From Nematopogon swammerdamellus (lineage: Eukaryota > Arthropoda > Insecta > Lepidoptera > Adelidae), in the NCBI GenBank assembly GCA_946902875.1, contig OX336344.1, positions 19,117,791 to 19,181,790 on the forward strand: a stretch of 64,000 nucleotides of DNA. Direction: 5' to 3'. Below, in pieces: positions 5,701-47,700 of the stretch. Every line of letters begins with the position of its first letter. Within the stretch, counting starts at the first letter, position 1. The notes beneath the pieces are model-generated. The model worked only from the letters and a program-made list of their open reading frames with translations, searched no databases and was not told where the DNA came from. The position numbers and the translations under genes are program-made.

Positions 5701-8700
5701 ATCGAAGTTCAAAACCCAATGAAAAACGAAGTGGCTTTCAGGCACGCTACACCGGGTAGGTGCATTATGCTGTATGTTTACCTGGACGGTATCCGGAGCG
5801 GGGCTGTATCTGCTCCTGGACATGGCGGCGAGGTGAGCGGCGGCGGCCTGCTGCGGCCAGTCGTCGGGCGCGGTCAGCTTCCACGCGCGCTCCGTGCCGA
5901 TCGGCTTCGGCTTGCGCTCCTCCTCCTCCACGCCCCAACCGCCGCCGCCGCCGCCCACGCCCCCCACGCCGCGCTCCAGCAGCGACTGTGCACACAAGTC
6001 ATTCATTATAAAACATTCTGAAACACGGTGAAGTTTGTAGAGGTGATGTAGGCAACCATGTCAGGTTAAATAGAGATGATGTAGATAACCATGTCAGATT
6101 ACATAAAGGCTATGTAGGAAACCATGTCAGGTGACATATAGATGATGTCGATAACCACGTCAGATTAGATAAAGGTGATGTAGGCAACCATGTCAGGTGA
6201 CATAAAGATCATGTCGATAACCATATCATATTACATAAAGGTGATGTAGGCAACCATGTCAGGTGGCATAAAGATGATGTCGATAACCATGTCAGATTAG
6301 ATTACATAAAGATTATGTAGGCAAACATGTCATGTGACATAAAGATGATGTAGATAATCATGTCAGATTACAAAAAGATTATGTAGGCAACCATGTTAGG
6401 TGAAATAAATATGATGTAAATAACCATGTCAGATTACATAAAGATTATGTAGGCAACCATGACAGGTGACATAAAGATGATGTCGATAACCATGTCAGAT
6501 TACATAAAGATTATGTAGGGAACCATGTCAGGTGACGATAACCATGTCAGATTACATAAAGATTATGTAGGCAACCATGTCATGTGACATAAATATGATG
6601 TAGATAACCATGTCAGATTACATAAAGATTATGTAGGCAACCATGTTAGGTGACAAAAAACAAACAAACAAAAATACTTAAAAACAATACAAGTGCACTC
6701 ATAAATTAAAAAACAGAATACACGCACCAGCTGTCAGCTGTCAGTGTTTAAAATAAATAAATAAATATGATGTAGATAACCATGTCAGATTACATAAAGA
6801 TTATGTAGGCAACCATGTCAGGTGACATAAAGATGATGTAGATAACGTTACATAAAAGTAAGATGGTGATGCAGACCTGGTAGGGATGGTGTATGGGCTG
6901 CTGCTGGTGCTTGGTGGGCTGTTGCTGGCTCTGCTGCTGGTAGGACATGAGCAGCGTGCCCAGTCCCGCACCGCCGCTGCCGCCCGCAAACAGCTGCACA
7001 CACACACAACATTTATTATTTGTTAATGAACTAGCAGCTTAATACGCTGATGTGTCTCTGATGATCACTGGTGTTGCTATTTGTTATCTTTCTTCCATTT
7101 TTAATACTTGTCAAGCCTATTTTTGAATTTGAAGCGATTTTCTTAGTGAGGAAGTTCTTTCTTGCTTTGGTTTAGAAGCTATTTAAAGTCAAACATATAT
7201 TTGGGAGAGGCCTATGCCCAGCAGTGGAACGATTCAGGCTGATGATGATGATGATGATGATGATGAAAGGTTGACTGAGATAAATCCACTACTAGTGACA
7301 AGTCCGCGTTTGCACACTACCGTTGTTTTTGTTTGTTTACTCTTAACATTATATACAGTGAGTATAGTCAGGCCTCACGCAATCTATGCACTTGCGCGCG
7401 CTAACTACCTACCGCCCGACGGGCCGCCGGCGAGCCAATTCAGTGAAAATTCGACAGCCGCGCGAAGCATACCTACACGCGCGTCCACGCAACTACGCGC
7501 AGCTGCGATGCAATAATTACTTTACACTCGATCGTTAAGGTACATTTTCGCACGCACCGATCGGCGACGTGAAGCATTAGGCTATTAAAGCCGTAGGTAT
7601 GGAACTTTTTCTATGGAGTGATTTATCTGTTACGAAGTAACTATTAGGTAATCTGGTATAGTCACCGGAGCGTTGTGGTTGTGGTGCATCATGGTTGGCT
7701 GGTGGGAGAAGTCGGGCGCGCGTGGGTTGAGTCGCGACACACTCTCCACACCCACGTAGCCCAGACCCACACCGCTGCTCATCGACACCTGCAGCCGTAC
7801 GGTATCGGTAATTAATATTTCAAAAAGTAACCAAATTAAAATAATAAATGACTATTACTAGCGGCGGGTGGCCGAGTGGTTTGGACATCGGTTTCTCATG
7901 CGAGAGGTCCGATGTGGATGCCAACAGTCAAGGATGAAATCAGATACTTCAACAAAAAGTATAAAAAACGACTGGCGACGCATCCCAAGAGACTGGCCTC
8001 CGATCTTTTGATCGAGAGAAGCTACACCAATAGGCTAAAGCGCTATCACATCCTTGCACTGGAGGATAGGACATAAATAAGCATGTAGAGGACCAGACAT
8101 ACGAGGAGGGTAATCAATGGATGACTCGACTCACACGACCAACCTCACACAGAAAATCTGCTTATGGTCACATTCCGATTGCAGATGGTGCAAGCACAAA
8201 AAAAAAAAAAAAGGTCCGAGTTTCGAATCCGGTCGGCGTGTAGCAGTTTTTTCTGATGGAAAAGTTTACGTGCGTACCTACACCTGCTGCTTCACCGCTA
8301 TGAGCCGGTGTAAAACTATACGTCTCTTCCCTTGCCCCTTACTAGGTGGTAGGCTCAAATTGTAGCCGACTGTATTGCTACCACCGTACTGGATGTAAGA
8401 TGGCCGCATAGCAGCCTCGGATGTGTTCTCCTCAGTTCATTGTAGCCGGCACGATCAAAGTAAAACGCTAATGTGGCACCTAATTCCAAGAGGATTGGGC
8501 TGACAACTCCACTCAACCAATAACGTATATATCCATCAATTAATCAATAGTAAAGAAATGTACATATAACAAAAAATGTATAACAAGCTACAAAATAAAG
8601 AATGAACAAATTGTCAAGACAACTTGTACGAATGGATTGAATGTAGTGGCAGGCCTCACGCACTCTAGGTACTTGCGCGCGCTAACTACCTACCGCCCGG

Positions 8701-11700
8701 TGGACCGCCGGCGGTCTAATTCAGTGGAAATTCGTCAGCGCGCGAAACATACTTACACGCTCGCCAAAGCAACTGCGCGAAGCTGCAAAGCAATAATCAC
8801 TCTACACTCGATCGTTTACGTACATTTTCGCACGCAGCGGTAGGCTATTAAAGCTGAAGGTATGGAACTTTTTCTATGGAGTGATTTATCTGTTACGAAG
8901 TAACTATTAAGTAATCTGTGGTAATGGTCTCACCATCATATTGTGTCCGTTTCTTGAGTTGTCTTGATAGATAGGTCCGTTCCTCGTTAGGTTTCCCATC
9001 TCCATCGCGTTCACACCGTTACCTAGAACAACAATGCATTTTATATTTGTTTATTTATAAACAGTCGGCACCGGTGGCTGTACTCAAAATCTCTACGGAT
9101 GATCAGACACAGCCAATAACACCACTCCTCGCGAAGCCACGCTCAGAGAGGCGCCATGCCGGCTATAAAGTGGACAAGAAGAATTTATTTGCACGTCAGC
9201 CTCGGTAGCTCGGTGATGCGGTCGGTCGACTGTCTGCCGTGATCATAAGCACGCCTGGGCGCGGTCAGTGGATGGACGGGTGACCGCTCGATCATTGAAG
9301 GATGAACGTGGTTCGGATTCCACGTAAAATTGAGGGTCCCTTCCCTTCTTACCTTACTAGGTGGTGTGTTTTAACCCGCCCGGGTTGCTACCACCGCACT
9401 GAATGAAAGGTATGTGAATAGTTCGTATTTTCCGCTCAGTTCAGTGTAGCCGGCCGACGTACTGTAGACCGCACCTCGCGAACGCGAGAGGCCGAAGCCC
9501 AGCATAGGGTGCGCTGTAGCGTTTTAAATTACTTATTGTTGAAACAAAAACAAAAAGAAATGATAATAAATAAATAATAAAAAATATTTTTTTTAATGAA
9601 TATAGCGACAGCGCATTAGGTTATAATAATAAAAAAAAATACACAATCAAGTTGGAGTAGTAGACGTGTAGCGCCGAGCTCGTCACCCACCAGCCCTGCA
9701 ACAAGAAAAGTAGAGGGCGTGCGTACCGATGGGCTGCGGTGTGGAGGACGGCGGGCCGATGGGATGTATGATGCCGGGCTGCACCGGCGCCTGCGCCCCG
9801 CTCGTGGACACGGCGCTCGGCCTCTGGATCGCCAGCGTTTGAGATTTTATCACTGCAACAAAACGCCACATTCTCGTCTCAAAACGTTCTCACAATTCAT
9901 GTTCTAAATACTTTTGAGACGCTGTTTTATTTTGGGTGGCTAAAAGCCATGTCGTGATTTCAATAAAAAAAAAGTATACTTACATATTACGGGGCTGTCC
10001 AAGGTTTTTAAATTTCAAACTTAAGACCCATGCGGACATTTAAAAAAAGGCTAAGGCCCTAAATAGGATAGGCTTTGACTTTAAAAATTTTGTTAAAACT
10101 CTAAAAATTCTTTAAAGCATTTATCTAATAATTAGAAAAAAAAATAAAAAAACAAAAATGATTAAAATAAATGCAAGTTCACTCATATATTAACCCTTCA
10201 TCACTGGAGCGGGCAATATTGCCCGCCGAGCATTTATACCGTCATCTATGGAGCGGTCAATATTAACCCGCCACCGCTCCAAACCGCTGCATGGGCCGAA
10301 AAATAATTTTTCCCTACACAATCTACTATGGGAGTATTACTACAAAGAGACATACTATAAAGTTGACAAAATTGATCTACCAACACTATCATTACCGAAG
10401 ATTATAACGAGCCGACAGAGTAGGAAAAAAATATCATATCTGTCGTCATTGTTGTGGGTGTTGTGTTGTGGGTCGGTGTAGTGAATGTTCGTTGAGTTTG
10501 TTCACCAAATACAGAAGAATGGACCGGTAAGTGATGTTTTTCCTCTTTTTCATTATATTCCGGACCTATTGAGTACATTTGTTTGTACTGAGTTGAGATG
10601 CATTTTACGTAAAAAGTCGAAGAAAAGTCCTACTCCATACTGACAATTTTTTCCTGTTTGTTGTTGTTGTCAAAGCTTGTTTCTCAAAATAAATCGGTTT
10701 TTTGGAGAAAGTGAGGTGACAGAAATGTTCATTAGTTCTTCTAGTTGAATAATATATGCCGTTTAGTGCTTACATGTCGTACATTTACGAGCAACAAGCC
10801 ATTTTTGTGACCTAGGTCTCGCGCCATACAAACTTTGCCTGTTTTGAGAAGCTTGTTTCTCAAAATAAATCGTTTTTTTGGAAAAAGTGAGGTGACAGAA
10901 ATGTTCCTTAGTTCTTCTAGTTGAATAATATGTGCCGCTTAGTGCTTGCATGTCGTAAATTTACGAGAAATGAGCCATTTTTGTGACCTAGGTTTCGCCT
11001 AGAAACTTGGTGAAAGTGTTTTTTTTGCCAACATTTTTTGCGAATTCAAAATTTTATTGTGGTTGACACGGGGGCTGCTGATACACAAGAAAGGTATGAT
11101 TAGGTCCGTTATTTATTAGTGTTTATAATAAAAATACTATGTGACCGATTTCCGGTCTAATAAATTTATAAAAATAAAAAATCTGAGACAGGTCGCGATT
11201 TTCATATAACACAACTTTACAAAATAATAATATGCAATATATATAAAAAAATACTATTTATAGCTAGAATATTTATCTGTAAATACAATCCATATGTTAG
11301 TTCATGAAGTTTTATGGAAAAATCTTCCAAAATGATTTTTTTTCGAGAGTAATGCGCCGGCGCCGATCGCGCCCGCCACCTGGTGTAGTAGAAGGATTGT
11401 TTTGGTTAATGCTTCCGTAGAGGACGGGTTAAAAAAACAGAATACACACACCAGCTGTCAGTGTTTAAAATAAATAAATAAAAAATATATACACAAATAT
11501 AGATTTATTCAGGTTTACGTTCTGGATTAATTTCCTCGGAAAATGTGTGCGACAGAAACCTGACCAATTTTAGAAAGGTCTCTGGATTGTAAGGGTGTGG
11601 TGTACCGGTGGGTGTGTGGGAGGTATGCTGCGCGTGGTCGAGCTGCGCGTGCTGGTAGAGCGGGGGCGGGGTGCTCGAGTGCGAGGAGGTGCGCGAGCAC

Positions 11701-17700: not shown

Positions 17701-20700
17701 TACATTTTTCCTGAATATCAGACTCAACCTGTTATTCATACTAAGTTTTTTGTAAAGTCACAGGCATTGATTCGCGCTGAAGTCGATTAAAATATCAACA
17801 TAGTTACTACAGGGCTGGCATAGCCAAAAATGGCTAAAGCCTTAAACAAAATAAAGATTTAAACAAAAATAAATCGGTACCTGTGTGGGCGGCACGCGCG
17901 GCTTGGCGTCAGCCGCGGTGGCGGTGAGGGTGGACGCGAAGGTGTGCGATTGCGGCCGCGAACCGACCAGCGCGTACGTGAGCGTGCTCAGCTTGCCGCT
18001 CGCGGCCGCCGTCGCCGCCGCGGCCGCTGCACGCTTCTCCACAGCTGCGGATACAATACAATATTAACTCTTTTGTTGCATACTGAACATGCACAGGGCG
18101 AGGAGTTTGAATTCATACTAAGTTTTTTTGTAAAGTCACAGGCGTTGAATCGTGCTGAAGCACATTAAAATATCAATATAGTTACTATGGGGCTGGCATA
18201 GCCAGGAATGGCTAAAAGCCTTAAACAAAATAAAGATAAAAAAAAAGAACATGCGTAGCGCAGATCGCAGTGGCTTCACTGAACATATCCAATCCAAGCC
18301 CACTGGCAGTAGCGGGAAGGCGCCAACTGAGGACGGGACTAGCGGGTGGCCATCTAGCTAGGGTGGGACTAGCGGGCTTGACATTTCAAGTTCGCATCTT
18401 GTCTTGTCAGCTAGTCTGCGATGACTAGGACGCCACCAGTTCATGTTCAAAAGTAAAACAATTGTGTAGTACCCGGAACTGACGAGCATGTATGAAGAAA
18501 AATATCAGTGTATCAGAATCTTGGCACATGGAGATCCGTTGTTTCTGCCCAATCCCATAGGGAAAGAGGTGTGATATAATTATGCATGTATGTAAAAAAC
18601 CCCTCTGAATAAAACAAAAGAAGGGCAGACTTAGCACTATGGCTGATTTCTTCCTGCCAACTGCCTGTTTTGTATTTCATCATTCTTTCTACTAGACACC
18701 TATGGATGCAATTTGGTTGTTTAGTTGGACGTTTTCCACTACACAAATGATCGCAGAAACATGCATTTTCTGGTGGCAAAATGGGCAAAATCCTTTCCGA
18801 GGCTAAAGCCCAATTGCGGGAAGGAGGGCTACCCCATGATTCAGCTAATCTTAGGATTATGTAAATTTCTTTTTTTCTATGCGTGAGATAAACCTAAATT
18901 TAGTGAATTTAAAACAATCAGGTCCAATTGCGGGAAGCATTGTTGATTGTCTACGATTGCACTAATCTTATGCCTGGTTGACACGATGCGAGTTAACGCA
19001 CGAGAAATGCTTCTAGAACGCATTTACGCACCGTGTAGACAGTTCTCGCAAGCTCGCAAACTGTTCAACGAACACTTCGCGATAGCGAGTTTTCTCGTTC
19101 GAGAAGATGCTCCTCGTGCGTGCAACCTCGCATCGTGTCAACGTACCTTTAGGGTTATATCAAGCATACAGAAGAGATACATTTCAGGGAGATAATCTTA
19201 AGATTAGCCAAATCAGAAGACAATCCTCCTTCCCGCAATTGGGTCCGAGCTCTATACATGTCAGTTAAGTGAAGTGAGATTTGAAGTTCGGTACACATCA
19301 AACCAACTCCGCTTTGGTTTCGTCCACTTGTAAAAATATAGAGAGAGAAGAACGCACCTTGCGTCTGCATGCGCGGAGGGGGCGCACGCGCTGTGGTCGC
19401 GTGCTTGTTCGCCGGCGTGCGAGTGGCGCCCGCCGTGCGACCTCCAGCCGTCGCGCTCACTGCTGCGCCCACCGTCTGCGCGGAACCACCGATGCACTTT
19501 ATACAACAACGATGCGGTAGAAATCAGACCCATTTCTCACGTGTTACTTTTTTATTTATTTTTTGTATAGCGCATATGGATCGTATCACATGTGGCATTG
19601 TTTCACCTACAAGTAGGTGTCTAACGATGCCCATGAACTTTCAGTGATGCACGGGGATTGCGAATGTGATGGCAGCCTGATAGGAGCCTTTTCAAGGCCC
19701 TTTTGAAAAACCCCAGGTCAACCAAAAACCCCTGGGGAGGAAATAGTTTTGTGTATGTACAATGTAAATACCGAGGCTGACAATAATAATGGTGTGTCGT
19801 CGCTCCACAGTAAGTGGATACGGAGCTCTCCGAGATGGGGGTGGTGGTGGTGGCCTACGTGTCTAGTACCACCACTCATCGCTCGAAGGTAGTCTCGCGT
19901 CGTCTCGGAGAGCTCTGTAGCCACGGCCTGCACCCGCCGGCGCGCTTGGAGGCCTGTCTCCCACCGCCGGCAGTAATGCCGTTTTTGTTTTTGATTGTTT
20001 ATATTAATTTTGTATATTTTTATTATTTTATTATGTATGAAGAATTAATATAAATATTGTAAAATGAAAACGTGAAAATAAATAAATAAATTAATAATAA
20101 AACCCTCACTTTAATTCATCCTAGTCCATATTTCTGAATGTAATACAAGCGTGAACCGCAAACGAACCTTAGTGACGGCGGGCTGCTTAGCCGGCTTGGG
20201 CTGTGCGACGGGCGCGGGCGCGGAGGGCAACTTAGCCCGCGGCAGCAGGTGGAAGATGTCCGCGTCGGGATCTCGGATCATTGCGGCTATCAGCGTCGCC
20301 GCCTGCCTCGTCGCCTCAGCGGAGCCCCTGGAGACACACGAGCATGTTCCATTACATTGAACATACAGAAGTCCTAGTCGCTTGTCTTTTTTAGAATAGA
20401 ATAGAATCGACGTGATGGCCCTCTCGCCCTGCCCCTTGCCCTGCTTGTCCACCTCGATGTGGGCGCCGGTGGAGGTGCAGATCGGATGTAGCCAAGCATG
20501 TGAGATTGCATGATGAGAATAGAGTAACTTGATGGTGATGATCCTCTCGCCCTTACCCTTGCCCTGCTTGTCAACCTCGATGTGGGCGCTAGTGGAGGCG
20601 CAGATAGGATGTAGCCAAGAATGTAGAGATGCATAATGAGAAAAGACTAACTTGATGCTGATGATCCTCTCGCCCTGCCCCTTGCCCAGCTTGTCCACAT

Positions 20701-23700
20701 CGATGTGGGCGCCAGTGGAGGCGCAGATCGGATGTAGCCAAGCATAATGAGAATAAACTAACTTGATGGTGATGATCCTCTCGCCCTTACCCTTGCCCTG
20801 CTTGTCAACCTCGATGTGGGCGCCAGTGGAGGCGCAGATCGGATGTAGCTAAGCGTGTCGAGTTGCATAATGAGAATAGACTAACTTGATGGTGATGATC
20901 CTCTCGCCCTGCCCCTTGCCCTGCTTGTCAACCTCGATGTGGGCGCCAGTGGAGGCGCAGATCGGATGTAGCTAAGCGTGTCGAGTTGCATAATGAGAAT
21001 AGACTAACTTGATGGTGATGATCCTCTCGCCCTGCCCCTTGCCCTGCTTGTCCACCTCGATGTGGGCGCCGGTGGAGGCGCGGATCGGATGTAGCCAAGC
21101 GTGTCGAGTTGCATAATGAGAATAGACTAACTTGATGCTGATGATCCTCTCGCCCTGCCCCTTGCCCAGCTTGTACACATCGATGTGGGCGCCAGTGGAG
21201 GCGCAGATCGGATGTAGCCAAGCATAATGAGAATAGACTAACTTGATAGTGATAATCCTCTCGCCCTGCCCCTTGCCCTGCTTGTCCACCTCGATGTGGG
21301 CGCCGGTGGAGGCGCAGATCGGATGTAGCCAAGCATAATGAGAATAGACTAACTTGATGCTGATGATCCTCTCGCCCTGCCCCTTGCCCAGCTTGTCCAC
21401 ATCGATGTGGGCGCCAGTGGAGGCGCAGATCGGATGTAGCCAAGCATAATGAGAATAGACTAACTTGATAGTGATAATCCTCTCGCCCTGCCCCTTGCCC
21501 TGCTTGTCCACCTCGATGTGGGCGCCGGTGGAGGCGCAGATCGGATGTAGCCAAGCATAATGAGAATAGACTAACTTGATGCTGATGATCCTCTCGCCCT
21601 GCCCCTTGCCCAGCTTGTCCACATCGATGTGGGCGCCAGTGGAGGCGCAGATCGGATGTAGCCAAGCATAATGAGAATAGACTAACTTGATGCTGATGAT
21701 CCTCTCGCCCTGCCCCTTGCCCTGCTTGTCCACCTCGATGTGGGCGCCGGTGGAGGCGCAGATCGGATGTAGCCAAGCATAATGAGAATAGACTAACTTG
21801 ATGCTGATGATCCTCTCGCCCTGCCCCTTGCCCAGCTTGTCCACATCGATGTGGGCGCCAGTGGAGGCGCAGATCGGATGTAGTCAAGCATAATGAGAAT
21901 AGACTAACTTGATGGTGATTATCCTCTCGCCCTGCCCCTTGCCCAGCTTGTCCACATCGATGTGGGCGCCAGTGGAGGCGCAGATCGGATGTAGCCAAGC
22001 ATAATGAGAATAGACTAACTTGATGCTGATGATCCTCTCGCCCTGCCCCTTGCCCAGCTTGTCCACATCGATGTGGGCGCCAGTGGAGGCGCAGATCGGA
22101 TGTAGCCAAGCATAATGAGAATAGACTAACTTGATGCTGATGATCCTCTCGCCCTGCCCCTTGCCCAGCTTGTCCACATCGATGTGGGCGCCAGTGGAGG
22201 CGCAGATCGGATGTAGCCAAGCATAATGAGAATAGACTAACTTGATGGTGGTTATCCTCTCGCCCTGCCCCTTGCCCAGCTTGTCCACATCGATGTGGGC
22301 GCCAGTGGAGGCGCAGATCGGATGTAGTCAAGCATAATGAGAATAGACTAACTTGATGGTGATTATCCTCTCGCCCTGCCCCTTGCCCAGCTTGTCCACA
22401 TCGATGTGGGCGCCAGTGGAGGCGCAGATCGGATGTAGTCAAGCATAATGAGAATAGACTAACTTGATGCTGATGATCCTCTCGCCCTGCCCCTTGCCCA
22501 GCTTGTCCACATCGATGTGGGCGCCAGTGGAGGCGCAGATCGGATGTAGCCAAGCATAATGAGAATAGACTAACTTGATGCTGATGATCCTCTCGCCCTG
22601 CCCCTTGCCCAGCTTGTCCACATCGATGTGGGCGCCAGTGGAGGCGCAGATCGGATGTAGCCAAGCATAATGAGAATAGACTAATTTGATGCTGATGATC
22701 CTCTCGCCCTGCACCTTGTCCACATCGATGTGGGCGCCAGTGGAGGCGCAGATCGGATGTAGCCAAGCATAATGAGAATAGACTAACTTGATGGTGATGA
22801 TCCTCTCGCCCTGCCCCTTGCCCTGCTTGTCCACCTCGATGTGGGCGCCGGTGGAGGCGCGGATCGCGTTGATGTTGCTCCCCGCGCGGCCGATCACGCG
22901 CGAGATCGCGTGCGCCGCCACAGACACCTTCTTGCATCTGCCAACGTATGTCTCTTTATAATGGAGTGAATTGGTTTTTATTTTTGGTGTCAAATGTCAA
23001 TTTCTAAGCTTTTTTTTAGTCAGACATTTGAATAGATTTGAGGAGATAGTTCTTTTAATTATTTTTTTTATTTACAGTTTAAAAAATTTGAAAAAAAAAG
23101 GGGTCACTAACATCAACAGTCAAGGCCATCCATGGCTGTTAATGTACATTTGTTTTGTTTGTAGATTAAAAGTCTAACCTTAAATATTAAGGGTGGATCT
23201 GCTCTATAGAAAGAAAGAAAAAAGTAACAGTCAATATTAGAATATTCTGTGGTTTCTACATCATCGATATGCATTTATAATTCAATGCGGATGAATGCAA
23301 TACCACAGTTGTACACAAATAAATCATAATAAGACCTTCATTATAGACATTTTTTCCAAAGTATCAGTAACCTCTGAGGGCTAGAGATGCTTTAAAAAAC
23401 ACATGCACATTACCCAGGCTCGACGGTGGAGAGTGCCTGAACGCTGGACTTGCGAACCACTTCCTTCCAGCCGTCCTCGCGACGGCCCGCGCCCGCGCCA
23501 CTACCCTTGGGGCTCGTGTTCTTGCCGTCCGTCTCCCATCTGTCAACACCACACTCTTTAATGTCACAAATTGTGTCGTAACATTCGTCTTCAGCGCGGC
23601 GTAGTATAGTTAATACTTCATTGAGTAAATGTGCAATATTTACGTGCCGTAATGTATATAACACGTAGACAAATATGTTTCCAGATCAAGCAGAAAAATT

Positions 23701-32700: not shown

Positions 32701-35700
32701 GTGTGTAACAGTAGGTAACTTGCATTGGACGGGGTCATTGACCGTACTATGTTCAAATGCAGAACAGCTGTTTGTTGTAAGTGAGTCACAAGGTCACTAT
32801 GATTGGTTTTTACAGCTACTTATTTGATTTGATTTTTTTGTTAGGAGAAAAAATGCTCCTATAAACATGTGTGTTTTTCTTACGTAAAGTGTTTATTTGA
32901 GTGTGTATGTAACCCTCCTGAAGTTATTGACATGACTAACGAAACACCTCATATATAAATAATTTCTATTCTATTCTGGTCCGTATTGTATAATGAGATG
33001 AGGTTACCTTATCGGGCTGTTTCTTGGTGGGTGTGGCGTTCTCCGACGGCGAGGCAGGCGGTGAGCCGCTGTCTTTCTTCTTCTTCTTGAGCTTCGAGGA
33101 CTGCGCCGGCGGTGGCTTCACGTCCGACGAGGAGCACGAACCCTGCACAACGCACGTGAGTCAGTGCTACCGCTCCGTGTGGCAAATCCAGTAAACAATT
33201 TTTAAAATATTTTTATGTTTATATGTTAGTACTAAGCATGTACACGCTTTATATATATTTTTAATTAGAAAAATGCAAATCGAAAATTATTGGAAAAAAT
33301 ACATCCCGACCAGGATTCGAACCTGGGTCTCTAGCTTGAGCTGCCAACGCGATAACCAACTACGCAACCGGGCCGTGACGATTATTCCAAAATTTCGCAA
33401 AAATTATGCGACATCATTCATGAAGGTGCAATAAGATCGAAACTTTGGAAATAATACCTCACGGCCCGGTTGCGTAGTTTGTTATCACGTTGCCAGAGAC
33501 CCAGGTTCGAATCCTGGTCGGGATGTATTTTTTTCAATGATTTTCGATTTGCATTTTTCTAATTAAAAATACATAATTTTTTTTCTCTAACTTTTCTCTA
33601 TAATGTAGTGTGATTTTATTTATTTCACAGCAAAATAACCTTCTTAAGCAGTAAAAATTACTTGCAAACACACATACATACACACCACACGCCGCATCCC
33701 GACAATCGGGGTAAGCAGAGTAATCGGTGTTGTGCTACAAGTATTCTGGTAAATTACAACACAACACCGACCACCACGTTCAGCAAAGTATTCGGACAAG
33801 ATAACTCAGATCAGGCAGCAAGTAAGGCCTGCATACATGTCTTGATGATCAAAAGTTTGTTGATAATATGTTTCTACAGTAAAAATTTAGATGCAAACAT
33901 GCGTTGACAGAAAAAAAAATGTAGCAAACATGTTTTGACAGTAAACTGTGTTGCAAACATGTTTTTTGCTAAATGTCTTGACAATAATTAGAAAGCCTGT
34001 TACAAACGTGTCATGACAGTGGAAAATGTGTTGGTAGTATAAAATCGTGCTCCAGCCTTGTACATCCGCTAATACCTGAGAGTTGGCATCGATGCCCGAG
34101 TCGCCCTCCTCCTTGCCGGCCGCGACAGCCTCTTCCTCCCCATCCCCTGGGCCCTCCTCCCCCTCCCCGCCCTCCGAGCACTCCGTCGAGGCCTTCTCCG
34201 AGTACATCGAGTTCTTGTCGTTCTCCTGCAGCAGCTTGCGTCTCTCCTCCTGTGGACGCAAACGTTACGCCGTCACCTGCTGTAATGATACTCAATGCGC
34301 TGAGCTTTAATTACGGATTGCGTAAGCTTTCACTTTAATTAAGGATTGTGTAAGCTTTTACTTTAATTAAGGATTGTGTAAGCTTTTACTTTAATTACGA
34401 ATTGTGTAAGTTTTGACTTTTATTACGGATTGTGTAAGCTTTGACTTTAATTAAGGATTGTGTAAGCTTTTACTTTAATTACGAATTGTGTAAGTTTTGA
34501 CTTTAATTACGGATTGTGTAAGCTTTGGTTTTAATTTCAGATTGTGTAAGCTTTGGCTTTAATTACGGATTGTGTAAACTTTGACTTTAATTACGGATTG
34601 TGTAAGCTTTTACTTTAATTACGGATTGTGTAAGCTTTTACTTTAATTATGGATTGTGTAAGCTTTTACTTTAATTATGGTTTGTGTAAGCTTTGGCTTT
34701 AATTACAGATTGTGTAAGCTTTTACTTTAATTACGGTTTGTGTAAGCTTTGACTTTAATTACAGATTGTGTATGCTTTTACTTTAATTACAGATTGTGCT
34801 AAACTTTGGATCACAGTTCGGGTTGGTACCACCGTACGGAATGTAAGATGGCCGCTGGCAGCCTCGGCTGTGTTCTACTCCAGTATAGCCAGCAATCAAA
34901 AGGGAAGTCTCCGTTGTGGTATCTTCTCCGAGGTGATATTGGCCGGTCGGAGCATGCGCTCTGGCCTCTCTGACTAGTATTACATAAAAAAAACTATTTA
35001 TCACAATTGTGCCAACTCTTTATACAGACTACGTTCACTTATCCACTCACCTGAAGTTGTTTAAGAGTTTGCACTATCTCTTTTCTGCGCCAAGTCTGGT
35101 CTCAAGTCTGGTCTCAAGTCATTGGGCAATTTAAATCTCACTTACCTTCTTCTTGCGTTCACAGAGATTGGCTGCCAGGTCCGGTTGTGACTATTCTCCG
35201 AGGAGTGCGAGCTAATGTTAGTGTCCTAAGTCGCACTCATAAAAATTGTCACTCACCCCTACTTTCTTCTCCATCTTCTTCTTCTTCTTGCGCTCGCGGC
35301 GGCGCGCGGCCGCCTGCCGCTTGCTCTGCTCGCGGCAGCGCTCCGTCTTCAGCTCCTCGAGCAGTATGTCCGCGTTCTGGTTGGCGCGCGCCGCCTGCGT
35401 CTCCTTGGCCGCGCGGATCGCGCGTACGCACTCCTGACACTTTTCAAGTAGTTCCTTGTCAGAGATTGTGTAGATGTACCTGCGAAAGCAAAAGAAAACT
35501 AGTATCATATTCACGCGATTAATGCGCGCCGGTGGGGAAGTGTGAGACGATGCACTCGCACTAGTCGAGAATCCTACGAAGAATACAGTTGGGAATTGTA
35601 CGGAAATTTAGTATGGTCGTAAATTGTTATAACCTTTCCAATAAAGTTATCTATAACTTGTATTACACTAATATTTGTTTTTATTCAAAATTATGAGTTG

Positions 35701-38700
35701 AACATTGCACGAACATCGCTCTCAAAACAAAACCTCACAAAAAAGTTTAAGTTTTGTTTCGATATCACACACTCGCGAATGGATAAAAACCTCCAATAAT
35801 AACCTATTCATTTTAAAAACGTTGCAATCTTTCGAATTTATACACAAACACAACACACTAATCAGTAAAATCATTAAAAAATAATTTTTATATGGGGCGG
35901 GGTCGCACACGAACACACATGTTCATCACCCTGTCTCGAAAACAGTTAGAAAATTCGTAAAATTTATGATCTAGCTAGGCACCCAAGTGAATCAGATCAA
36001 GTAGGGCATATTTACACCTTTTTTATTAGGGTTCCGTATCAGGTACGAGACCTTATTATTAGAAGTATAATTGAGCCTTATCAACATATTGAAAGAGCGT
36101 GTATTTTAAAAGTATTTCCGTAAGAGGATTAATTAAAAGGTAAGCATTAGGCTGTTTGTTTTGTATGGATACTTTTGGAAAAAATGAACTCACCTCGTCA
36201 TCTCCTGGTCCGAGGGGAACTGGGTCACCACACCGACCATCCATTTAACAACCTTCGTGTGTCCTTTCCTGAAGGCTGCCATAAGGCACGACACCTGAAG
36301 AAAATATAAAATAATTTGTAGATTCCTCAAATGTTAGTGGACTTGAACTCTAATAATAATAAAAAAACCGGTCAAGTAAGACGGACGTAATTAGTAAGTT
36401 AGGACGGGTTACGTCCGGATCGGTACAACCGCACTGAACGAAGGTCGATCAAACGAAATGGGAATAAGGTTATGAGAAGTGAAAAATCTATTCGGCAGGT
36501 TGTATTCAGTCTGTGCACTATTTGTTTGCAATTCAGAACCGCACAAAAGATTGCATCTCAAACATGAACATGCCAATTTTACCTCTTCGAAAGAGCTGAC
36601 ACAAAATCACATCATTATAATACTACGCTCTAGATCAGGGGTTTTCAACCGGTGCCGCAAATTCTAAGTAACTCATTAAACATTTTCATGAATACGGCGG
36701 AAGAAAAGAGCAAGCATAATTTTTCATCTACAGATAGATTATCCACAACTACTTTTTCTGACTGATTTGTTTGAACACCTCAATAAATTTAATGCGAGTT
36801 CGCAGGGAAGTAATAACAGAATTATGACATCCTCGAATAAAATGAGAGTTTTCACTGATAAATTACATAAACAGCGTACATTAAGTACTAAGCCGCCAAT
36901 AGTTTTTAGTTGCATAAATTTCATATGCTTTCTGTATGAATGTGGTGTTTTTTTTTTTTTATTGCTACCGAACTGGGTGGCTCTGTCCGAGGTCGCAACC
37001 TCAGGCGCAGCCAATTTCACCCCCGAGGAGGTGCCAGTCCGGCTTGGAGGTGGACTAATGTTGCTGGGGAAAGGCTATTAACCCGCGATTTGAAGATCTG
37101 TGGATTGTAGGAGTGGGGGAAGATATTTCCTGGGAGCCCGTTCCACACCTTTGCAGTGCGGCACAAGAACGATTTAGAGAATCGTGCAGTTCGAAGAACT
37201 CTTCTGTCGACTACAAACGGGTGTTCCGCGAGAGTATGGCGGGTTTGGCGAAGGCGAACAGGAGGAGGAGGGATAAGGGAAGCAAGTTCGTCAGAGCAGC
37301 GGCCATAGTAGTACCGATAAAACAGGCTCAATGACCCAGCGATACGTCCGTGCTGTAGAGGTTGAAGGTCCTTTGTGAGTACGGAGTCACCAATGAGGCG
37401 AATGGCTCGTCGCTGAATAGAATCCAAGGCTGAAAGAACGTACTCAGGGGAACCCTCCCAAAGATGACTGCAATATTCCATCACCGGTCTTAATTGTGCT
37501 TTGTAGAGTGTAAGCAGTTGGACCGGCGTGAAAAATCGCCGACCTTGTGCAGTGAAATTTTCGTAGATGAAAAAGTGTGCCAGAAAGGTTGAAAACCCCC
37601 GCTCTAGGCCGAGACTCACCTTTCTGTTGTCCTGTGAGTCAATGTCCGCGTTGGAAGAGTACAGCATCTCGACGACGCTCAGGTGTCCGCCGTTGGCCGC
37701 CAGCCACAGCGGGGAGTTGCCCTTCTTGTTCTTCACTTCCACCGCCGCGCGTCTGCTCCGCACAACATACATTCTCAACGTACGCTTCACAAAGCCATCC
37801 AACTAAATCTCTAAGGGAAAGTCTGTCTGTATGTATGTATGTACATATGTTTGAGGTAAACTCCGGAACCACTTAACAGATTTTGATGCGGTTAGCATCA
37901 ATGTAAAGAGTAGTTCTTGAGGCTCACTATAGACTATATAACTATATACCACGCTAAATAACCGTACTGTGTGGGGTCGGTACTTAATAAGAATAGCCCC
38001 ACTGCAACTCTCCCCGCGCATGTCGTAAAAGGCGACTAAGGGATAAGCGGCCTGCAGACACCCCGGTCGACTTGTGGCTTTCATGGAAGACATAGGGTGG
38101 CTGGGGTAGCTGGAGACTGCGGGGTTTTGCACGAAGGTCCCCAACCAAGCGGGATTAGTTTGCAGGCCTAGAGCCAACCCCAAACCAAAACAACAACAAC
38201 GCTAAATAACCTTAGGGTTGAGCAGTATTAAAGAAGAGCAGTATTTATGAACGGAATTTAGTGTCGAATGGTCGTAATAGATGGCGTTAGCAGTTTTGTT
38301 CCGTTGCGATGGAGTAGAGGTTAAACTGAGTCAACCGCGAGCGAAGCCGCGGGCAAAAGCTAGTAGAAGATTATCTAATATTAGAGTACAGTGCATCCGT
38401 CCGCAAAACCTTTTCGGAACTGAGATGCACGTGTGCATGATATGAATAAAACTTTTATCCAAAATTAAAACTAACTCGAGGAGCGAAGTGAGAGATGAGA
38501 CTCATCGAAACTTTTGAAATATTAAATGCCCATTATGTGCCTAAACTTAAATCGGTGTACATAATGAACATTAATACGAGACTTTGCGATCATTCGCTAA
38601 AACTCAACCAAGCTATTTTCAATTCAAACCCCAGGAAGTAATTTCTTTCTAACCGAGTAGTGGACTCCTGGAATAAATTGCCCCAAGAAGTGCCCGAAGA

Positions 38701-41700: not shown

Positions 41701-44700
41701 GCGCCGCGTCCGCCTTGTGCGCCGCGCGCTGCGGCGCGAAGCGGCCCTTCTTCTTGAGCGGGGGCGGGGTGACGGTGTTGGCGGGGGTGGTGGAGGCGTC
41801 GCGCTTGCCGTGCGCCGCCTCCGCGTCCGCCCGCCCCAACGCCAGACCCGCCTGGAACGCATCTATAGTCGTCTGAAAAACAATATTAAATTATTGCATT
41901 TTCAAAAAGTTTACTCATTTATAAAAACATTTTATAGTTCAATAATGTATGCAATAGATTAGTAGCATCTGTACATTATAATTGACATAGAATAACGAAT
42001 ATAGCTTGAGGTGACTTTGTCAAACAATTGAAAATTGGGAATAAGATGTTCATGGTAGTGCATTTCAGATGACGAAATATTTCGAAAAGTGCACAGTTAT
42101 ACTAATCACAAAAATAAAACAGGAGCGGGCACGTTGTGGCAAGGCATGCCTTGCCACAACGTCCCCGCTGCGGGTGCATAGGAGTGCGGTGCGAACCAAT
42201 CACTGCCAGCTGGGGTCAAGTCTGGTTCCTGTGAAGTTTAGGAATTCGGAAAGAGCCAATCACAACACAAGGACGCTTTTGGACGTCGGAGCTGATTGCA
42301 GTAAAGTTTGTACTTCTATGAAAAGAAAATTCCACATGTTCAAAATATTTTCCAAACCAAGTTACAAGGTTACCTCTGCGTTTTCCGGTTTTATTTTTGC
42401 AATTAGTATACATGTAGCTCATACATGGAGAGAGCTTCGAAAACGTCACTGGAAGCATCCTACAGAATATGGATAGGTAGAGAGAGGGAGGTCGGGAGCG
42501 GGACTGGTGGTTTCCCCGCGTCCTAGTCAACGCAGATGTAGCTGACGAGGGCTTGATGCGAGCCGAAACGTGAAGCATGCGCGAGAAATTTAGAGTGGCC
42601 ATTCGCTAGTCCCGACCTCGATCAACACCCTCCACTACTGTCAATAGGCCCGGATATGTTCGGTGAAGCCATCGCAAGCTCAGTTCGACACCTTCCAAAC
42701 GAACAGTAGTTTACCATGAGTTTGGGTTGGGGCAGATGCGCGGGCGCCGCGAAGGTGGGCGGCCGCTCCTCGTCGTAGCCGAGCGCGGGCGGGGGCAGCC
42801 CGGGCGGGGGCTGCAGCCCGGGCGGCGGCAGGCCGGGCAGGGTGGTGAACGGCGCCGGCGGGTTGGGCTCCGGCTCCTCCGAGTCGCCCGCGTCCGCCGG
42901 CGGTACGCGCCACGGCGACATCGCCAGCTCCGCCGCCGACGCAGGGCTCGGCGGTCGAAGGCGGTAGTTGCCGTTCGCCACCTGCGGTCAGGTTGGGTTT
43001 TATAATGGCAGTTGTGTAGCTCATTGTTGTGTTGTGATTAGGGTTGCCAGATGTTCGCGATTAAAAAAACGGACAACCAAAAACTCAATTATTAATTAGA
43101 GAATTATATTTAGATTTTTAAAGTAAAACACATGAAATGTTAACCCGTCCTCTACGGAAGCATTAACCAAAACAATCCTTCTACTACACCAGGTGGCGGG
43201 CGCGATCGGCGCCGGCGCATAACTCTCGAAAAAAAATCATTTTGGAAGATTTTTCCATGAAACTTCATGAACTAACATATGGATTGTATTTACAGATAAA
43301 TATTCTAGCTATAAATAGTATTTTTTTATATATATTGCATATTATTATTTTGTAAAGTTGTGTTATATGAAAATCGCGACCTGTCTCAGATTTTTTATTT
43401 TTATAAATTTATTAGACCGGAAATCGGTCACATAGTATTTTTATTATAAACACTAATAAATAACGGACCTAATCATACCTTTCTTGTGTATCAGCAGCCC
43501 CCGTGTCAACCACAATAAAATTTTGAATTCGCAAAAAATGTTGGCAAAAAAAACACTTTCACCAAGTTTCTAGGCGAAACCTAGGTCACAAAAATGGCTC
43601 ATTTCTCGTAAATTTACGACATGCAAGCACTAAGCGGCACATATTATTCAACTAGAAGAACTAAGGAACATTTCTGTCACCTCACTTTTTCCAAAAAAAC
43701 GATTTATTTTGAGAAACAAGCTTCTCAAAACAGGCAAAGTTTGTATGGCGCGAGACCTAGGTCACAAAAATGGCTTGTTTCTCGTAAATGTACGACATGT
43801 AAGCACTAAACGGCATATATTATTCAACTAGAAGAACTAATGAACATTTCTGTCACCTCACTTTCTCAAAAAAACCGATTTATTTTGAGAAACAAGCTTT
43901 GACAACAACAACAAACAGGAAAAAATTGTCAGTATGGAGTAGGACTTTTCTTCGACTTTTTACGTAAAATGCATCTCAACTCAGTACAAACAAATGTACT
44001 CAATAGGTCCGGAATATAATGAAAAAGAGAAAAAACATCACTTACCGGTCCATTCTTCTGTATTTGGTGAACAAACTCAACGAACATTCACTACACCGAC
44101 CCACAACACAACACCCACAACAATGACGACAGATATGATATTTTTTTCCTACTCTGTCGGCTCGTTATAGTCTTCGGTAATGATAGTGTTGGTAGATCAA
44201 TTTTGTCAACTTTATAGTATGTCTCTTTGTAGTAATACTCCCATAGTAGATTGTGTAGGGAAAAATTATTTTTCGGCCCATGCAGCGGTTTGGAGCGGTG
44301 GCGGGTTAATATTGACCGCTCCATAGATGACGGTATAAATGCTCGGCGGGCAATATTGCCCGCTCCAGTGATGAAGGGTTAAGAAAAAAAGTTTTATTCA
44401 TACTTGGTGCATACCTACACCTGCTGCTTCACCGTTCAGAACTGGCGTAAAACTGTAGTTCCCTCTTCCCTTGCCTCTGACTAGGTGGCTAGTAGGTAGC
44501 TAGGTGGTAGGCTCAAACTGTAGCAGACTGGATTGATACCACAGTAATGGATGTAGGATGTTCCTCTAGTCCAGTATAGCCAGCAATGCAAAGAGAAGTC
44601 GCAGGTACTTTTTCGAAGGTAATATTGACTGGTCGGAGCATGTGTTTTGGTTCCTCTCACTCAGCCACCCCTACCGGATTACACAAAAAAAAAAACATGT

Positions 44701-47700
44701 ACCTCTGCAAAGTTACTTGTGGAAACCTGCTTCCACAAGGGTACAAGACGTGGAACATACCTCCACAAGATTACGACATGTGTACAAACACACCTCCACA
44801 AGGTTATAACATTCGAACACGCACCTCCACAAGGTTACAACATTCGAACACGCACCTCCACAAAGTTACAACATTCGAACACGCACCTCCTCAAGGCTGC
44901 ACTCGTCGAGCTGCCTGGCGACGTCGTGCGCGGGCCAGTCGCAGGTGAGTGCCTCCTGCGCGGCGGCGGCGAGCAGCTGCCTCGCCTGCCGCTCCTCGCC
45001 CGCCGTGTACTGCCCCTCCTCCGCCGCGCCGCCGTCCCCGCGCTCCGCTCGCCCGTCGCCCGCGTCGCCGCCCTTCTGCTGCATGATCTCGTGCGACTTC
45101 TGCTGCATCACCTGAACAAAGCGACTAGAGCATTCTAGCGACCTAAAATTTGCGTTTTGTGTGCCGCAAGCGCCATCTGGTAGGTTTTAGTTTTTTATGG
45201 AAACTGACACGATTGGCTAAAACACCTACAACGTCCGTGATGTCAGCCCATAACACCGGGTGAGCTAGGTGCCATGTCAGTGCTTCCCTTCGGTCGTGCC
45301 GGCTACACAGAACTGGACGGAAAACACGAACTATTTACATAGCCGTTTCGACCGACGTTTCATTCAGTGCGGTGGTACCAACCCGGGCGGGATGAACCCT
45401 ACCACCTAGTAAGGTAAGAAGGGAAGGGACCTATAGTTTTACGTGGAATCGGAACCACGGTCAGCCTCCAACGGTCGAGCGGACACCCATTCAAGAACTG
45501 ACCGTGGCCGAATGAAAGGTCGGTTGAAACGGCTATGTTTCGTGTTGTTTTCCGTCCAGTTGAGTGTATCCGGCACAACCGAAGGGAAGCCCTGACTGGA
45601 ACCTAGTTCACCAATGCGTTATGGGTTGACATCACGGATGTAGTAGGTGATGTAGCCAACCGCAATTAACCTGTTAGCTCCCCTTGGAAACGCGCGTTCT
45701 CGTACTGGGGAAGGTATGTTCCCTAAGGCCTGTCTCATCCTTTTTTTGTTAATTTTTATTTCTGAGCTCCCTCAGGGTTTCCGATGCGGGAAGCGAGTCG
45801 GGGAACGTACGTTCCCTAGGGGAGCTAACAGGTTAAAGCTGTGGCCGTCATAAATAACAGCATCACAGGAAAGTCGGATGAAAGAATGTCATCACCTGGA
45901 GCACGAGCGCGCGCAGCTCGGCGGGCGGGAGGGCGACGAGAGAGGGCACCTCGCGCTGCAGGTACGCCAGCACCGCCCCCAGCTCCCGCGCCTCCACGGC
46001 CCCCCACGCCGTGCCCGCTGTCGCACCGCCCCCGACCACGCCCGTCTGCTGTAAAAGATGTACATAATCAATATTTGAAGTTGAGAATTGCGTGCATTAG
46101 TAGGTCATACTGCTGCGTCTGCTGCTTCAGACAGAGGGACTTGCGCTTGTTCTGCTGCAGCCACAGCTGTTGTGTCATTTGAAAGTAATTACCTGCTGCA
46201 CACAAGCCTGCTGCTGCGCTTCCTGGCCAAACTGCTGCGTCTGCTGCTCCAGACAGAGGGACTTGCGCTTGTTCTGCTGCAGCCACAGCTGTTGTGTGTC
46301 GTTTGAAAGTAATTACCTGCTGCACACAAGTCTGCTGCTGCGCGTCCTGGCCAAACTGCTGCGTCTGCTGCTCCAGACAGAGGACTTGTGCTTCTGCTGC
46401 TCCAGCCACAGCTGTTGTGTGTCGTTTGAAAGTAATTACCTGGTGCACACAAGTCTGCTGCTGCGCGTCCTGGCCAAACTGCTGCGTCTGCTGCTCCAGA
46501 CAGAGGACTTGTGCTTCTGCTGCTCCAGCCACAGCTGTTGTGTGTCGTTTGAAAGTAATTACCTGCTGCACACAAGTCTGCTGCTGCGCGTCCTGGCCAA
46601 ACTGCTGCTTCTGCTGCTCCAGACAGAGGTCTTGTGCTTCTGCTGCTCCAGCCACAGCTGTTGTGTGTCGTTTGAAAGTAATTACCTGCTGCACACAAGT
46701 CTGCTGCTGCGCGTCCTGGCCAAACTGCTGCGTCTGCTGCTCCAGACAGAGGGACTTGTGCTTCTGCTGCTGCAGCCGCAGCTGCTGCAGCTGCTGCTGC
46801 TCCAGCTGCTGCATCTTCTGCTGCTGCAGCTGCTGCTGTTGCAGCTCCAGCATCTGGCTCTGGAGATGAAATAGTGCTTAAAATGAGTCGGTAGCGGTCC
46901 ATACTCTGCATATTGTGCACCCACGCGTTGGCCGCCCCCTTTCGCATTCACAGGTGCAGAAAGCACACTTATTGTGGAATATGTTTTCTTCCAGTCTGCC
47001 TTGGCACAACACCGCATCAACACAATTCACTGTGTGCAGTTATCTATAGAGGCACAATTATAAAGATGATAAAATATTTAATAGGTCACCATAACCATTT
47101 TAACCAAAACCGTTTTAGGCTAATACTGTCAAGTACAAGTTTATTAATATGCATTAACGAGTAACGCAGTGTTACGCCACACCAAAGGTTCATCAATATA
47201 GTAACGAGATCTAACCTACACGGTCAAAGAAAACAAAGGACCCTACTGCGATATCTAACTAGCGCGTCTGACGTAACTTTCATAACCAATGTTGCCCACC
47301 TCGGTAAGGTGTTGACCGAAACGTTGCAATGCCTGGAGCACGACTATCTTGCGGCCGATCTTGCCGTCTTTCTTCGATACCGGCTTAGCCTTCGGCCGAT
47401 CTTGAATCGCCGTGTTCTATAACAAATGTACGTCACACATCAAAAGAGCGAAAAAAAAACCACTCTTACGCACACTCGCACAGACTGTGTTAGTCTCAAG
47501 CCACAGCGTGTTACTGGATTGGTGGGGACGGGGGGCCGTGAAACAAATAAGGGTTCATGCCGTTATACGTACGGATGGATTAAAGACGGTTGGTGTCCCA
47601 TTTTCTTTGACCGTGTTCGGAGCAAACTGTTTACGACGCATGTCACGCAAACGCTTTTGGAACGTCACGATAAGGTTACAACATTGTAACTGAAATACTT

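Follow-up and report, generated by a model that had tools for sequence, protein, structure and literature searches.

Introduction

Tandem repeats that extend across exon-intron boundaries have been described in amphioxus as 'mirage' minisatellites. They occur in the genes for Adh3, troponin C, the globins BflGb6 and BflGb9, and PGBD5; their units are reported to measure 10-160 bp, both boundaries are included, length and somatic instability are recorded, and regular splicing is described as undisturbed (PMC3087553, PMC3902484). A comparable array is found in the moth Nematopogon swammerdamellus (Adelidae), within a window of 64,000 nucleotides (assembly GCA_946902875.1, contig OX336344.1, positions 19,117,791 to 19,181,790 of the forward strand), where the tail of a KH-domain exon and its splice donor are repeated inside the next intron of a gene of the Mask/ANKRD17/ANKHD1 type. 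Like the amphioxus mirages, the unit of this KH array spans an exon-intron boundary, with about 78 nt of exon tail, the donor and about 33 nt of intron, and with 111 bp and 21 extra copies it falls inside the reported size range. Judged by these structural features, the array would belong to the mirage minisatellites, which appear to be the closest known class. The differences lie in the insect host, in the number of extra copies (up to 21), in the spread over six genes, in units of 196 bp (PASK) and 165 bp (MAPKAPK2) that exceed the range given in the sources, and in the repetition of the donor only, in eight of nine arrays, where both boundaries are reported for amphioxus. Instability has been reported there, whereas the present array is known from one assembly, which underlies all array structures and copy counts given below. 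Mirages would thereby be extended to insects. The reports found concern amphioxus only, and the literature matches listed (titles and abstract starts) included no arthropod array of this kind, although absence is not thereby shown.

Two other systems share features with the KH array. In the Rogers model of intron gain, illustrated by potato RdRp and about five cases in Drosophila, a short tandem duplication likewise covers a splice or proto-splice site (PMC4974935, PMC2891723). As reported there, such duplications place their copies within coding sequence or contribute an acceptor, and a new intron results, whereas the KH copies are without a good acceptor and lengthen an existing intron. In minigenes with pairs of 5' splice sites, identical donors likewise compete for one acceptor (PMC9225289). 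The moth array differs as a natural insect case with up to 19 identical donors, known from sequence alone. The KH array is probably a passive product of recurrent tandem duplication of the mirage type. Its persistence would be explained if splicing settles on the first donor among many identical ones, so that the protein is affected little or not at all.

Structure of the array at the KH exon

A protein search with the KH region matched 91 proteins and identified the host as a Mask/ANKRD17/ANKHD1-like gene, the twelve named butterfly and moth matches showing 81-91% identity over 72-92% of the region. The KH exon, located by tblastn with lepidopteran orthologs, occupies 22788..22937 on the minus strand, as do all features of this gene described below in the notation with two dots. 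It is 150 nt long and ends in ..ATC AA; the ortholog proteins read ..EPG-CKKVSV..IITIK-GSAEATK, and their junction point places the real donor, AA|GTTAGT, at 22786..22787 (G at 22787, T at 22786). Lepidopteran orthologs run from ..GQGERIITIK directly into GS.EAT.. and thus join the exons at the real donor, so that the first donor is the ancestral one. The predicted Diabrotica ANKRD17-like protein (P0001) has two separate KH-type stretches, perhaps through an error in the gene model or assembly. The intron before the KH exon measures about 476 nt. The one that follows, at 20328..22787, has 2460 nt (3 x 820) and leads to the exon with the second half of the KH domain at 20168..20327 (GSAEATRQAATLIAAMIRDPDADI).

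This second intron carries the array, at 20402..22755. An earlier note, made from the sequence alone, had described an array of exon tail and donor at 20402..22937, in units of 78 and 33 bp whose spacings are all multiples of three. Both points held on counting. There are 22 copies with the real exon tail and hence 21 array copies, and successive units are spaced by 111 (15 times), 123 (five times) or 102 nt (once). Tandem Repeats Finder (TRF) reports 20631-22866 with a period of 111, 19.9 copies and 93% matches, and the score of 3721 is far above chance. A search with the array gave 10 matches in the assembly (699 Mb, 39 contigs), every one of them at the Mask locus; repeat counts from assembly-wide searches are lower bounds.

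In exact form, the octamer AAGTTAGT occurs 19 times, at the real donor and in 18 of the 21 array copies. The donor has been lost in unit 1 (+1 G to A), unit 20 (+5 G to C) and unit 21, where it is gone. Splice-site scores, here and below, come from an approximate matrix. Only the acceptor at 20327 scores above 1 in the intron; the best inside the array reaches 0.5, and the copies therefore do not provide the combination of GT and usable AG on which intron gain depends. New donor-like sites, GG|GTAAGG, are present in unit 18 (20789..20790) and in unit 20 (20555..20556), the latter 229 nt from the acceptor, each with a score of 4.5 vs 2.4 for the real donor. Both are out of phase with the acceptor, as read directly from the sequence.

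Turnover among the units is also visible. Units 2, 6, 7, 9, 11 and 13 are identical, units 11-12 equal units 13-14, unit 4 equals unit 8, and unit 16 carries the exact tail of the real exon. The most divergent units are 20 and 21, and unit 1 combines a 9 bp deletion and its dead donor with few other changes. The array thus shows a homogenised centre and divergent edges, as in mirage minisatellites.

Arrays of the same anatomy in this and other genes

The same gene contains two further arrays. A Q-rich exon (46686..46859) is the parent of the second, at 46109..46685, in which a 123 bp unit joins the exon tail, CAG|GTAATT and the intron start. Four extra intact donors are present (46562, 46439, 46316 and 46192), three of which stay open and would add 41, 82 or 123 residues. 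A query with this array matched the assembly only at this locus, and in a protein search with its frame none of the 7995 candidates scored passed. As a separate observation, genuine isoforms are more likely to arise from the Q-rich exon array (region 46109-46784) than from the one at the KH exon. The third array, at 44759..44886, repeats a 31 bp unit with GGAG|GTGCGTG from the end of the VMQQKSHEI exon, two exons beyond the Q-rich exon (region 44759-44896).

Beyond Mask, a genome search for the kinase family listed 135 matches, 82 of which were inspected, in 30 returned stretches (L009-L038) and 38 stretches (L040-L077) picked blind to their repeats. The former, around the best matches and mostly with long uninterrupted frames, contained no recognisable exon array. 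Three of the 38 blind-picked stretches did, in PLK1 (118 bp unit, 13 copies), MAPKAPK2 (a 91 bp donor array of six copies and a 165 bp whole-exon array of three) and CDKL2 (146 bp, four copies). PASK (196 bp, five copies, each with a donor) and PUF60 (145 bp, six copies) were spotted by eye through their tandem matches, as one tandem group each among the 135 listed kinase matches and the 125 listed RRM-family matches. Copy numbers in these genes include the real exon end, the one exception being the 91 bp array of MAPKAPK2; gene names are those of the best matches to solved structures, and exon ends were read by eye. For comparison, TRF arrays with a period of at least 20 cover 4.7% of the 39 stretches L039-L077. 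The same anatomy is therefore present in nine arrays of six genes on six contigs: Mask (three), PASK, PLK1, MAPKAPK2 (two), CDKL2 and PUF60.

In MAPKAPK2, about 400 bp of inserted sequence, whose ends by eye resemble inverted repeats, separate the donor array (L046:568-1546) from its real exon, which suggests the arrival of a mobile element beside the first unit. The whole exon of the same gene (L046:2798-3300) is present in three copies with acceptor and donor, separated by introns of only about 27 nt, and the 165 bp unit keeps the frame.

Use of the repeated donors would be ruinous in most of these genes. Among extra intact donors with the exact motif, a stop or frameshift follows 11 of 11 in PLK1, 4 of 4 in PASK, 5 of 5 in PUF60 and 2 of 2 each in CDKL2, the 91 bp array of MAPKAPK2 and the third array of Mask, 26 of 26 in all; the KH, Q and whole-exon arrays together leave 7 of 24 open. 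For the six arrays outside Mask, the unit is not a multiple of three in five, and 24 of 26 extra intact donors lead to a stop or frameshift. In the six arrays where all 26 later donors are ruinous, the first donor must be used almost always, if these genes work.

Eight of the nine arrays repeat only the donor, one (MAPKAPK2 165 bp) repeats donor and acceptor, and none the acceptor only. A sign test on this small sample gives 0.008 for 8:0, which overstates the polarity: Mask alone contributes three arrays, the one at the KH exon was the starting point, and PASK and PUF60 were seen through their tandem matches. The value is 0.031 without these last two (6:0), and 0.06, not significant, when the KH array is also dropped (5:0). 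It is conceivable, although rather doubtful, that mirage-type arrays are common and polar in this genome, donor duplications surviving and duplications of the acceptor alone hardly ever doing so, since splicing commits to the first donor met. If so, the genome would amount to a large natural experiment on how a donor is chosen among many identical copies, with the polarity as a footprint of co-transcriptional, exon-defined splicing.

Origin of the arrays and choice of donor

Each of the nine arrays looks like a tandem duplication that starts within an exon and stops shortly after the donor. At the KH exon, such a duplication would then have expanded by unequal exchange or slippage; much of the array became homogenised, whereas the far end is divergent. 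The intact exon stands upstream of the whole array. The spliceosome would then pick the first donor, which is nearest to the exon's own acceptor and is transcribed first, and the array would leave with the intron, with little or no effect on the protein. For PASK, the last copy ends in ..ATTGAGTATATAT and the unit begins with GAGTACC; a short match may have seeded this duplication.

Experimental background for this reading is provided by five minigenes in human cells. In that study, when two identical strong 5' splice sites compete under exon definition, the upstream one is used exclusively, and the switch to exon definition lies near 250 nt (PMC9225289). The introns of about 476 and 2460 nt exceed this length, so that exon definition is plausible at the KH exon. 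Upstream 5' sites are also reported to remain tied to RNA polymerase during synthesis of the intron (PMC8316553). From the minigene rule and this tethering, we infer that the first donor wins, that the array is removed and that it is neutral.

Several points weigh against this reading. The minigene rule rests on human cells; the same study reports a preference for the downstream donor where introns are short, and exon skipping in larger constructs when the identical donors are weakened (PMC9225289). A Drosophila study treats intron definition as typical there (PMC2891723). The last intact KH decoy donor lies 324 nt from the acceptor, a small margin over the 250 nt switch. With a real donor at 2.4, new sites that score higher (4.5) and an acceptor of the KH exon at -3.7, competition could matter. 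Of the 21 units, those without a working donor motif are precisely 1, 20 and 21, a set with a chance of 1 in 1330, for a pattern chosen post hoc; selection could account for it, as could ordinary edge divergence, either being sufficient. In the exon-derived part of the array, 7 of 15 changes are synonymous, against about 0.24-0.28 expected (P 0.04 to 0.10, depending on the assumed transition bias), a mild excess that gives at most a hint of, and is compatible with, weak constraint. Finally, by partly approximate lists, TRF arrays contain 3 of the 28 donors in the window and none of its 30 acceptors; as these arrays cover 10.5% of the window, three or more donors would be met with P 0.57. By this test arrays do not gather at donors, and only the contrast between donors and acceptors is left.

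If the later donors are never used, up to 18 perfect copies of the octamer are ignored in nearly the same exon context; sequence alone could then not explain donor choice, and position must decide. The long-standing question of how one donor is selected from several identical ones could then be addressed in natural genes, some of which are conserved and have arrays whose use would destroy the protein. Such loci may be handled wrongly by gene prediction and by assembly from short reads.

Coding potential and alternative explanations

The KH frame runs open from the exon into the first units and closes at a TGA (22439..22441), as the earlier note had proposed. Its expectation that donors of units 3 and 4 would add in-frame blocks of 34-37 residues stood as regards the open frame and failed as regards block size: the donor of the first unit being lost, the added sequence accumulates from unit to unit, and the two open options amount to 213 nt (71 residues) and 324 nt (108 residues). 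The other 16 of the 18 intact decoy donors meet a stop. Stops in the KH frame occur in 5 of 21 units, all in one TGG codon (TGA in three, TAG in two). Together with the three lost donors, this agrees with the earlier view of later units with stops, at least one donor lost and a mostly non-coding array.

It is quite unlikely that the array donors are used at times, whether to extend the KH domain by 71 or 108 residues or to yield stop-containing transcripts that lower Mask output. The 18 intact decoys with an octamer identical to the real donor, the two that keep the frame open and the three open donors of the Q-rich exon array speak for such use; the 16 decoys that run into a stop speak against it, and the added residues would be expected to break the KH domain before its last helix. 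Peptide motifs of the array were absent from all 187 proteins retrieved (91 and 96), among which the species itself is perhaps not represented. Columns derived from the exon vary about as much as the others, with 0.19 distinct changes per column against 0.22 in the remaining unit (12 bp block excluded), and no coding constraint on the array is detected. The spacings of 111, 102 and 123 bp, and the 123 bp of the second array, were suggestive of frame selection, yet only three of the nine arrays have a unit divisible by three, which is the chance level, and frame-keeping therefore looks accidental. A coding exon duplication or a functional series of donors would retain frame and coding constraint in its copies, and the KH copies do not, save perhaps for weak constraint. 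Neither the suggested coding extension nor the idea of a length-variable regulator thus finds support, although a regulatory effect is conceivable. An open frame of 675 residues in another frame was dropped, since it follows from a 111 bp unit free of stops in that frame.

The copies might instead remain uncut and recruit U1 snRNP downstream, strengthening a weakly marked exon or shielding the intron from early polyadenylation. This is unlikely, although the donor copies are identical, the KH acceptor is weak, and inclusion of an exon is reported to be restored by engineered U1 that binds beyond its donor (PMC4822034). The donor columns, with two changes in eight, are no better kept than the rest of the unit. 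RNA structure was inconspicuous (z about 0 for two units, -0.7 for the exon). That mis-assembly inflated or invented the copy number is very improbable: copies differ by private changes, a two-unit higher-order repeat and units of 102, 111 and 123 bp are present, an unrelated insert stands, by eye, between the 91 bp array of MAPKAPK2 and its exon, and nine such arrays are spread over six contigs. Passive, tolerated duplication with splicing from the first donor thus accounts best for the KH array.

Other repeats

Further arrays were seen in the kinase stretches. Those in L066, L067 and L073, fifteen more, and an A+T-rich one in L073 were judged by eye not to be exonic; two of the fifteen (in L020 and L032) have long open frames. 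A 21 bp array of 20 copies (L071:2880-3305) ends, by eye, just upstream of an apparent acceptor, which is seemingly not repeated.

In the window, an array of 33/66 bp at 6044-6846 begins about 30 nt past a donor at 6876, stops short of that donor and fills most of the intron. Another, of 28 bp in 18 copies (34305-34808), ends just upstream of the acceptor at 34249, which is seemingly not repeated either. Repeats with a period of 176 bp (1.9 copies each) at 10673-10998 and 43574-43899 are apparently reverse complements of each other. At 37017-37602, a frame continuing from the ankyrin exon near 37620 resembles what we take to be the end of a non-LTR retrotransposon polymerase.

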